This document shows, in pieces, positions 14,128 through 46,048 of a stretch of 51,868 nucleotides of DNA (position 1 is its first letter; the number at the start of each line of letters is the position of its first letter). Below the pieces are notes generated by a model, which saw only the letters and a program-made list of their open reading frames with translations, did not search any database and had not been told where the DNA came from. The position numbers were made by a program, and so were the translations under genes. The stretch covers positions 1 to 51,868 of the forward strand of contig JAETUM010000013.1 in assembly GCA_021768625.1 (NCBI GenBank), given 5' to 3'. The DNA is from Candidatus Stoquefichus sp. GTDB taxonomy: Bacteria; Bacillota_I; Bacilli_A; Erysipelotrichales; Coprobacillaceae.

Positions 14128-14345
14128 AATAAAAAAGCCATTCCTATCAAGGAACGACTTATATCGCGGTACCATCCTTATTCATAATCATATCATTATG
14201 CTCTCTAAGTCGATAACGCTGACTATGCGTTGATGTTTACATCACTCTTCAAAGTAGCTTTCTTTATGTCCTTTTAGAAATTTACACCAACCATTTCCTC
14301 TCTACAAAAAGAATCATAAATACTTTTCTTTTTCAACGATTTGAC
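14128..14345 (-). promoter_or_regulatory. T-box riboswitch, alanine specific
   Basis: On the minus strand the Stem I apical loop GGTGTAA, the codon GCT (14256-14258) in the specifier position followed by ACT, the T-box core GGATGGTACCGCG (near 14165-14177) and a strong terminator are visible. The terminator pairs AGTCGTTCC with GGAATGGCT and is followed by a T-run. GCT is an Ala codon and the TGGT bulge fits A73 of tRNA-Ala, in agreement with alaS downstream. Confidence 0.92.
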
Positions 14346-22822: not shown

Positions 22823-23803
22823 TCAAAGTTCATTTTCATAAAAAATCTTTATTTTTATATCTTTTAAATTTTGTGGTAAAGGTGAAGTTATTGTTTTATC
22901 TTGTAAGTACTTTAAACAACCAATAGGTTTTATAAAACGAATTTGATAAGCATGTAAAAATTGATGATGTAAATGATATTGTTTCTTTATCTTTTTATTT
23001 AATTCAAAATCTCCATACTTACTATCTCCAATAATAGGATGTCCAACACTTGAAAGATGTACTCTAATTTGATGTGTACGTCCTGTAACAAGACGAACTT
23101 TTAACAATGAAAACTGATGATTTGTTTCTACTTGTTCAACAATTGTATGCATCATTAATGCTCCAGGTGTATTTTTAGAAACAACTTTTACCAAAGATTG
23201 ATTTTCTTCTTTCTTCATATAACCAATCAAATCAGATGAATTCATATTTCCTTTACAAATAGTGAGATATGTTTTATCAATACAATGTCTTTTCTTCATC
23301 ATTTCATTGAGATCTTGTAAAGCTTTCATCGTTTTCCCAAAAATAACAATACCACTTGTATTTCGATCTAAACGATGAACAGGTCCAGGAACAAATCCCA
23401 AATCTTGATAAGGATCATATTCATTTTTTCGATATAAATATGTTAAAACTTGATTCGATAAAGTATTCATATCTTCATCTTTATCTTCATGAACCAATAA
23501 ACCTGCTGGTTTATTCACAACTAAAATATGTTGATCTTCATATAAAACATCAAATTCTATTTTTAAATCAAATATTGTTTGAGGCTTTGTATACTCTCTA
23601 AACTTATCTTCATATAAAAATAATGAAACAACATCATTTTCTTGAAGAATATAATTTTCTTTGACTTTCACTCCATTCACTTTAACATCTTTTTTTCTTA
23701 ACATCTTATAAATGAATTGTGGTGGAGCTTGACATAATAATTTTTTTAAGTACTTATCAATTCTTTGATGAGCATGATTCTTATCTATCACTAATGTTTT
23801 CAT
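22823..23803 (-). CDS. RluA-family 23S rRNA pseudouridine synthase
   Basis: A 326-residue enzyme with an N-terminal S4 RNA-binding domain (about 12-65) and the pseudouridine synthase domain holding the catalytic Asp in [16 protein letters not shown] (about 141-156). Later motifs [15 protein letters not shown] and [10 protein letters not shown] are complete. The S4 domain points to an RluC/RluD-like rRNA substrate, though the exact site is not determined. It faces away from the small RNA and Nudix gene. Confidence 0.9.
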
Positions 23804-23869
23804 TTTCTTTCACCAATATCTATTATACAAAAATAAAAAATAAAAATATATAAAAATTTACTGAAAGCC

Positions 23870-23897
23870 TTTACATAAATAGAAAATTTGTTATAAT
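23870..23897 (+). promoter_or_regulatory. Promoter of the C-rich small RNA
   Basis: TTTACA (23870-23875), a 16-nt spacer and a perfect TATAAT (23892-23897). It predicts an RNA start near 23904, right before the first hairpin. Confidence 0.8.
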
Positions 23898-23903
23898 AGT
23901 ATA

Positions 23904-24008
23904 TGTTAAGTGGTATTCACTTAATCATACCCCCTATTATCACCCTAACGTGTAAATAATAGAGAGATAAAGAAAGTATGCTCCCCCGCGTACTTTCTTT
24001 TCTTTTTT
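23904..24008 (+). ncRNA. Candidate C-rich regulatory small RNA (RsaE/RoxS-like)
   Basis: A self-contained RNA unit of about 105 nt. Hairpin 1 is TTAAGTG-GTATT-CACTTAA (23906-23924). Hairpin 2 (23934-23962) pairs CTATTAT with ATAATAG and has an inner CAC/GTG. The last is a 13-bp terminator (23969-24000) with loop TCCCCC and a T-run. Unpaired C-rich stretches lie between hairpins 1 and 2 (ATACCCCC), in hairpin 2 (CACCC) and in the terminator loop. Such motifs can pair with Shine-Dalgarno sequences, as in staphylococcal RsaE and B. subtilis RoxS. The next gene has its own promoter, so this is not simply a leader. No coding frame of note lies inside. Structure is read from the sequence; function is inferred. 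Confidence 0.7.
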
Positions 24009-24009
24009 G

Positions 24010-24018
24010 TGCTATAAT
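24010..24018 (+). promoter_or_regulatory. Extended -10 promoter of the Nudix gene
   Basis: TGCTATAAT sits just after the T-run of the small RNA terminator and would start RNA about 12 nt before the GGAG site of the Nudix gene. The -35 region is poor, as is common with an extended -10. Confidence 0.65.
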
Positions 24019-24037
24019 AAATACAGGAGTGAGAAAA

Positions 24038-24562
24038 ATGGAAAAAGAATTAAACAGTCAAGTGATTTATGATGGGAAAATACTCAAACTTACAAGAGAT
24101 GAAGTTCAATGCGAAAATGGACAACATGCATATAGAGAGGTTGTTCATCATCATGGTGGTGTATGTATTCTAGCTATGAAAGATAATCAAATTATTCTTG
24201 TGAAGCAATTTCGTTACCCTAACAAAATTGAAACTCTTGAAATCCCTGCTGGAAAACTAGAACAAAATGAAGATCCCAAAACATGTGCATTTCGTGAATT
24301 AGAAGAAGAAACAAATCATCGTGCCAAAGACATGAAAAGAATTATGAAAGTTCTTCCTTCACCTGGTTATACAAGTGAGTGGTTATATTTATATGAAGCC
24401 ATTGACTTTCAAGAAGTTGATGACTCATTAGAATGTGATGAAGATGAATTTATTGATATTATCTATATGGATATTGAAGAAGCTTATCAAAAGGTTCTTG
24501 ATGGAACAATTGTTGATGCAAAAACTGTTATAGCTATTATGTATGCTTACAAAGAAAAATAG
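24038..24562 (+). CDS. Nudix hydrolase, ADP-ribose pyrophosphatase-like
   Basis: A 174-residue hydrolase resembling NudF, which splits ADP-ribose to AMP and ribose-5-phosphate. The Nudix box runs from GKLEQNE to RELEEETN, with all metal-binding Glu present; the usual Gly after REUXEEX is Asn. The preceding strand and the EIPAGKLE context are typical of the ADP-ribose class. The start at 24038 has a GGAG site; the longer frame begins inside the small RNA terminator. Confidence 0.88.
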   Translation: MEKELNSQVIYDGKILKLTRDEVQCENGQHAYREVVHHHGGVCILAMKDNQIILVKQFRYPNKIETLEIPAGKLEQNEDPKTCAFRELEEETNHRAKDMKRIMKVLPSPGYTSEWLYLYEAIDFQEVDDSLECDEDEFIDIIYMDIEEAYQKVLDGTIVDAKTVIAIMYAYKEK

Positions 24563-45707: not shown

Positions 45708-46048
45708 AAGATGCTCACTCAGATAAGCCAAGTTTTGTTTTTCAGTCGATTATTTATCTACGTTTTCACGTCTAAACCATCGTTTGATTCCTTTGGTTTA
45801 ATTCCCCTACCATTATTTGGGTTTCATCCTTGCAGAGTTTACCGCTTTTCACTCTTTTTTTCAAAAGACATTGTTTCTGTGGCACTTTATGATTGCTTCA
45901 CCATGCTTTCGTTTAGGTTAGCAATCTGTCGTTAGTTTTCACTACTCTAACTTATTGATTCGTTAGATACAAACACTACAATCATCACAGATTGTGGATG
46001 CCTGGACTTTCCTCTACATATAAATGCAGCAATCAACTCTCGTGAGCA
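45708..46048 (-). ncRNA. rnpB: RNase P RNA, class B, short form
   Basis: Catalytic RNA that cuts tRNA precursors at their 5' ends. Minus-strand landmarks in order: P1 arm TGCTCAC, GAGGAAAGTCC (CR-I), AAAGTGCCACAGAAAC (CR-II), AAGCGGTAAACTCTGC, AAACCC...GTAGGGGAA (CR-IV), AAACTTGGCTTAT (CR-V), and the closing P1 arm GTGAGCA. The length of about 340 nt is shorter than the B. subtilis RNA (about 400 nt), implying shortened peripheral helices. It lies beside gpsB, as in B. subtilis. Confidence 0.95.

Follow-up and report, generated by a model that had tools for sequence, protein, structure and literature searches.

Several small RNAs (sRNAs) of the Firmicutes, including the LhrC family, carry C-rich pairing motifs in unpaired regions. 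RsaE/RoxS, FsrA and LhrC act on mRNAs; the RsaE/RoxS promoter is regulated by Rex and/or ResD/SrrA, whereas FsrA is under Fur and LhrC under LisR. The C-rich regions of RoxS and FsrA bind mRNAs of central metabolism, RoxS pairs with Shine–Dalgarno (SD) sequences, and Rex and CcpA are both among the inputs that control RoxS (PMC8216469, PMC5419742). We compared these systems with a locus in a window of 51,868 nucleotides (the whole stretch of DNA analysed) from Candidatus Stoquefichus sp., contig JAETUM010000013.1, in which an earlier note, made from the letters alone, had proposed an undescribed sRNA. Like RsaE/RoxS (RF01820; Staphylococcus, Bacillus), the predicted RNA is ~100 nt long, has its own promoter and terminator, displays several C-rich unpaired regions and may share both action at SD sequences and metabolic control of its transcription; it differs in giving no match to the sequence model and in belonging to another bacterial order. 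With FsrA, LhrC and other C-rich-motif sRNAs of Firmicutes it has unpaired C-rich pairing motifs in common, but their sequences, regulators and hosts are different and no Rfam match occurs here. Transcription under catabolite control, which for this locus would be a conjecture, recalls the CcpA-controlled sRNAs RosA and RsaI. RosA, however, is G-rich and sponges C-rich sRNAs, whereas the conserved unpaired parts of the RNA here are all C-rich, and RsaI combines G-rich regions with one C-rich region, unlike the present RNA. RosA is repressed by CcpA (PMC8216469).

All features of the sRNA gene lie on the forward strand. A promoter scan recovered the arrangement described in the note, a -35 box TTTACA (23870-23875) and a -10 box TATAAT (23892-23897) separated by a 16-nt spacer, fitting 11 of 12 consensus positions with a TG preceding the -10. 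Across a kilobase the scan returned three sites against 7.2 expected from shuffles; the promoter is not significant by itself, and its support is its conservation, with the -10 box averaging 99.5% identity in 31 homologues. The terminator scan of the same kilobase found a single terminator, that of the sRNA, against 0.3 in shuffles. It comprises a hairpin of 13 pairs (23969..24000) with the loop TCCCCC (23982-23987), followed directly by a T-rich tail (24001..24009). With ends estimated from promoter and terminator, the predicted transcript spans 23904..24006, or ~103 nt, close to the ~105-nt unit originally claimed; the estimate of ~100-105 nt assumes a start ~7 nt 3' of the -10. These sequence features would give a free-standing transcript within the 80-200 nt range, with its own promoter and intrinsic terminator.

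Folding of region 23900-24009 gave -33.5 kcal/mol, compared with an average of -11.2 for shuffled sequences (z = -8.4). The predicted structure consists of hairpin 1 (23905..23925; GTTAAGTG-loop-CACTTAA, six pairs, with a loop whose length differs among species), a weak hairpin 2 (23934..23962; CTATTATCAC-CCTAAC-GTG/ATAATAG, leaving CCTAAC exposed, present in most single-sequence folds) and the terminator, so that folding and terminator scan together returned the two hairpins and 13-bp terminator reported from inspection. The three C-rich motifs named there are likewise all present and are conserved among relatives within unpaired regions: ATACCCCC in a linker, CACCC mostly in the loop of the middle hairpin, and CTCCCCC in the terminator loop (motif 3). 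Motifs 1 and 2 fall in the core CATACCCCCTATTATCACCCTAACGTG (23926..23952), the putative mRNA-pairing region. Mean unpaired probabilities were 0.75 for the first CCCCC (falling to 0.06 in one homologue), 0.64 for the hairpin 2 loop and 0.97 for the terminator loop, with UAUUAU at only 0.23. Loops containing CCCC are rare, occurring in just 2 of 135 terminator-like hairpins across 585 kb sampled from the window genome: the one studied here and one belonging to another apparent C-rich sRNA. We saw no conserved open reading frame inside the sRNA; the one listed at 23978-24562 is an in-frame extension of the downstream Nudix gene upstream of its SD, and its start is not conserved.

A DNA search of 60 relatives located the corresponding region in the majority of family genomes, where the loci share the core CATACCCCCTATTATCACCCTWACGTG. 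We then built a covariance model for the sRNA (R1) and ran it on 43 family genomes and 295 genomes from the order. Within the family, which comprises the Coprobacillaceae-type genera Thomasclavelia, Faecalibacillus, Massilimicrobiota, Longibaculum, Stoquefichus and Beduini, R1 identified 31 clear homologues (83-116 bits) among the 43 genomes, along with about six diverged or disrupted loci (25-47 bits; L085, L086, L087, L089, L091, L093); the window genome was the sole one of its genus among those compared. Matches among the 295 genomes of the order were marginal outside the family (E 0.003 or weaker), with sister-family matches at E 0.003-0.06. We set aside two of the latter as homologues, since L095 looks like another, distinct C-rich sRNA and the L096 locus was unconvincing. 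Exact core matches, from which we took the family name Coprobacillaceae, include those in Thomasclavelia cocleata, T. saccharogumia, Faecalibacillus intestinalis, F. faecis, Longibaculum muris, Massilimicrobiota, Candidatus Stoquefichus massiliensis and Beduini massiliensis.

Conservation is concentrated in the parts of the RNA that are predicted to be unpaired. Mean identity of the 31 homologues to the window was 0.92 for the core and 0.93 for the terminator loop, compared with 0.81 for hairpin 1, 0.79-0.82 for the terminator arms and 0.59 for the linker; the T tail (0.48), the Nudix promoter region (0.47) and the sequence upstream (0.51) vary most. The C-rich segments, ATACCCCCTATTATCACCCTWACGTG of the core and the loop of the terminator, are thus better conserved than the stems and linker, and the core retains 13 invariant columns. 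In two loci whose whole terminator stem has been replaced, the loop has kept its CCCCC (GAAAACGUCC-CCCCC in L022, AAACCAACCC-UCCCCC in L024). The hairpins and C-rich loops, whose absence from close relatives the note had named as grounds for giving up the proposal, are therefore both conserved. Irregular copies also exist. Genome G028 holds a partial second copy ~1.4 kb from the intact one (L088/L082:1566-1648, +; within the 25-47-bit range of the diverged loci), without the promoter element and with broken C-runs, perhaps a decaying duplicate. In a Thomasclavelia-type genome (L085:3689-3817) the sRNA is interrupted after its 5' part by inserted AAGGGGCTG-type sequence, and a contig end in G029 (L296) breaks with similar letters just 3' of the -10.

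Pairing is maintained through sequence change. RNAalifold predicted hairpin 1 and the terminator from 24 sequences, and in a count over these two stems 97.5% of cells were paired, with changes on both sides in 10 of 17 pairs. Cells with both-side changes numbered 33 against 5.4 in shuffles, and none of 500 shuffles reached any of the measures; the structure came from the same alignment, and the shuffles ignore relatedness, for which sliding the partner corrects. Shifting the partner by 1-3 columns destroyed the signal. Hairpin 1 (six pairs, 98.6% of cells paired) contributes both-side changes in three pairs and the terminator (11 pairs counted, 97%) in seven. Hairpin 2 varies too little in sequence to supply covariation support. 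We also considered hairpin 1 as a palindromic DNA operator, which is unlikely given that its inner spacing differs among homologues.

Judged from its sequence, the locus is a real, uncatalogued sRNA gene kept across the family, of a known kind but forming a new RNA family. We put at about 0.75 the probability that it is a free-standing gene for a trans-acting antisense sRNA of ~103 nt, as predicted. By analogy with RsaE/RoxS, the RNA most likely silences other genes by masking the signals from which their translation starts. Its C-rich linker and loops would pair with G-rich SD regions of several mRNAs, and this pairing would block translation initiation and thereby alter mRNA stability, as for RsaE/RoxS, FsrA and LhrC; the terminator loop could provide a second docking site.

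Target prediction against 5' regions, a check proposed in the note, did not single out the partners of the RNA. We searched 515 roughly called genes of the window genome (stretches totalling ~585 kb) and 355 of genome G035. In the window genome the core paired better with start regions than with gene-internal sequence (-9.5 versus -6.6 kcal/mol), but no better than shuffled cores did with starts (-10.1 +/- 0.6), since any C-rich RNA would do so; G035 gave the same picture. No target conserved through the whole family was found. The pattern AGGGGGTA-N(1,10)-ATG matched 30 times in four genomes, not far above the 25 matches of a reversed control, and in three of the four it picked darA, which encodes a cyclic-di-AMP receptor (PF06153). 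The darA SD reads AAGGGGGT only in four closely related genomes, G000 (the window genome), G005, G018 and G021, and is mostly AGGAGG-like elsewhere in the family. The gene of a 188-aa protein that matches no Pfam family has AGGGGGT in nine genomes, which span five genera. These two genes are weak target candidates, to be treated as leads only. As an observation apart, rluA, darA and the 188-aa gene all look split in the single-contig genome G034 (L007/L062), which suggests assembly frame errors.

The same results lend some weight to an alternative in which the C-rich RNA does not regulate mRNAs by SD pairing and its chief partner is a protein or a G-rich RNA. Such a partner would fit the lack of a conserved mRNA target and of pairing in excess of shuffles, and G-rich RNAs that bind C-rich sRNAs are known in B. 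subtilis and S. aureus (PMC8216469). Against it, known RNAs of like anatomy (RsaE/RoxS, FsrA, LhrC) act on mRNAs, and the conserved core AUACCCCCUAUUAUCAC is long, as suits base pairing. We regard this alternative as unlikely, though the best placed of those we weighed.

The genomic setting bears on whether the RNA acts in trans, as the note had supposed. The gene lies between a divergent RluA-family pseudouridine synthase gene (22823..23803, reverse strand; Pfam PseudoU_synth_2 and S4) and a Nudix hydrolase gene (24038..24562, forward strand; Pfam NUDIX). As read earlier, the latter has a separate extended -10, TGCTATAAT (24010-24018, forward strand), after the terminator, an element found in many of the relatives where Nudix lies next to the sRNA. 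The divergent gene is a stably linked neighbour: the putative operator of the sRNA lies 41-67 bp from the rluA start in most relatives (105 in Beduini, 17 in L093). The distance from the operator to the Nudix start is usually 139-197 bp, and Nudix is the next gene in most genomes, which could be taken to suggest a cis-acting leader or attenuator whose hairpins stop or pass transcription into Nudix. The sRNA does not, however, hold a constant position directly upstream of Nudix, which is displaced or absent in L065, L077/L098, L085 and L093; distances of 220, 271, 784, 1346 and 1982 bp occur, so that Nudix has moved by several hundred to about 1800 bases in some genomes, and in Beduini (L077/L098) no Nudix gene was found nearby. 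Because the sRNA stays with rluA in such genomes, it lacks the fixed link to Nudix expected of a leader. The separate Nudix promoter, the very strong terminator with its conserved loop and the failure to see an alternative antiterminator helix in the folds also speak against a leader, which we rejected on synteny and consider very improbable. Nudix thus appears to be a neighbour only, and a position that follows rluA makes trans action likely. Elsewhere the window contains two T-box leaders and a class B RNase P RNA (193-414, +; 14147-14345, -; 45721-46043, -).

Size, C-rich single-stranded parts and terminator type might also place the RNA in the RsaE/RoxS family itself. The covariance search called for in the note argues otherwise. 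The RsaE model RF01820, with a gathering score of 79 bits, had no match above its cut-off in any of the 43 genomes of the family, whereas the B. subtilis control matched; no hit appeared in the window genome at E up to 1, nor at the locus or in ten relatives at E up to 10. By eye, we recognized no canonical Rex box (TTGTGA-N6-TCACAA type) at the sRNA promoter, where the only conserved element is TGWAANCCTTTACA. Membership in RsaE/RoxS is refuted as far as the sequence goes and has only a very slim chance of being correct, while the likeness drawn in the note holds as an analogy. No Rfam family reached threshold at the locus, and in the ten relatives nothing did except nearby tRNAs; with no earlier description in our literature searches, the description of the sRNA as new stands.

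Further unannotated C-rich sRNA candidates came to light during this work. One in the window genome (L126:10935-11068, G000:C102, +) has the linker GACCCCTCTCCC, the terminator AAAAGAACGT-TTCCCC-ACGTTCTTTT and an upstream TTCACA-N5-TTCATA direct repeat, possibly a PhoP/CiaR-type box; it has no Rfam match over threshold and has a relative at L092:2271-2371 (-). Another from the same genome (L122:11080-11190, G000:C19, +) carries ATTCCCCTC, ATCCC and the terminator loop TTCCCC and is preceded by a -10 box, TATAAT. Similar candidates occur in the family and sister family (L090:2443-2552, -; L094:2835-2927, -; L095:2656-2776, +), of which L090 matches the RsaE model weakly (28.6 bits), and L090 and L094 have TTCACA-type repeats upstream.

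The -35 hexamer of the sRNA lies within a cre-like 14-bp imperfect palindrome, TGAAAGCCTTTACA (23862..23875, forward strand; consensus TGWAANCCTTTACA), a putative operator. Across the 31 homologues, which were anchored on the operator pattern, its mean identity was 94.5% with 12 of 14 columns invariant, against ~50% upstream and in the spacer. This 14-mer is conserved as well as the RNA core and persists at diverged loci, but a conserved DNA element of operator plus terminator without a functional RNA is a negligible prospect, given the conserved unpaired core within the transcript and hairpin 1 pairing that survives changes in loop length, as fits an RNA and not a DNA operator.

The consensus TGWAANCCTTTACA is present in 40 of 43 genomes, typically in one or two copies; one lies over the sRNA -35 box in nearly all, and in nearly every genome it occurs almost nowhere else. 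Of the 14 positions of the cre sequence TGWAANCGNTNWCA it fits 13; its centre in the homologues is CC, where cre sites of the CcpA regulon have CG. Further sites, identical or nearly so, stand before gap (G035, G004), rnfC (G014, G033), an old-yellow-enzyme-type (enoate-reductase-like) reductase (G035, G063, G065), and PTS, formate-transporter-like and secreted-protein or secreted-enzyme genes, all named from reading translations. Copies are few per genome, some in no obvious promoter, and a regulon of TGWAANCCNTTACA could not be established from so few sites. All 43 family genomes encode a CcpA-like LacI protein that falls below the curated ccpA cut-off (best LacI-family match in the window genome, 256 bits versus 442); in the window genome the CcpA-like protein is encoded at G000:C89:33842-34837. 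We tentatively suggest, at a little under even odds, that a LacI/CcpA-type regulator at TGWAANCCTTTACA represses or tunes sRNA transcription. Such control, less certain than the pairing mechanism, would make the sRNA a carbon- or redox-responsive regulator produced mainly when the preferred sugar is absent. More doubtful is the full scheme, in which carbon catabolite control in Coprobacillaceae would act post-transcriptionally through the sRNA: a CcpA-like regulator would switch it at the CC-centred operator, three C-rich docking sites would serve to repress metabolic mRNAs, and the arrangement would have evolved independently of RoxS/RosA in Bacilli.

Our literature searches, conducted outside subscription papers and preprints, returned no sRNA described from this gut family. 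Together with its strong conservation, this makes the locus a direct entry to post-transcriptional regulation in the family. With the covariance model and the operator, these readings can readily be tested in species that can be cultured, for example of Faecalibacillus or Longibaculum. As an RNA of unrelated sequence, it would take the C-rich-motif strategy outside Bacilli proper and so touch on the question whether this strategy evolved more than once.
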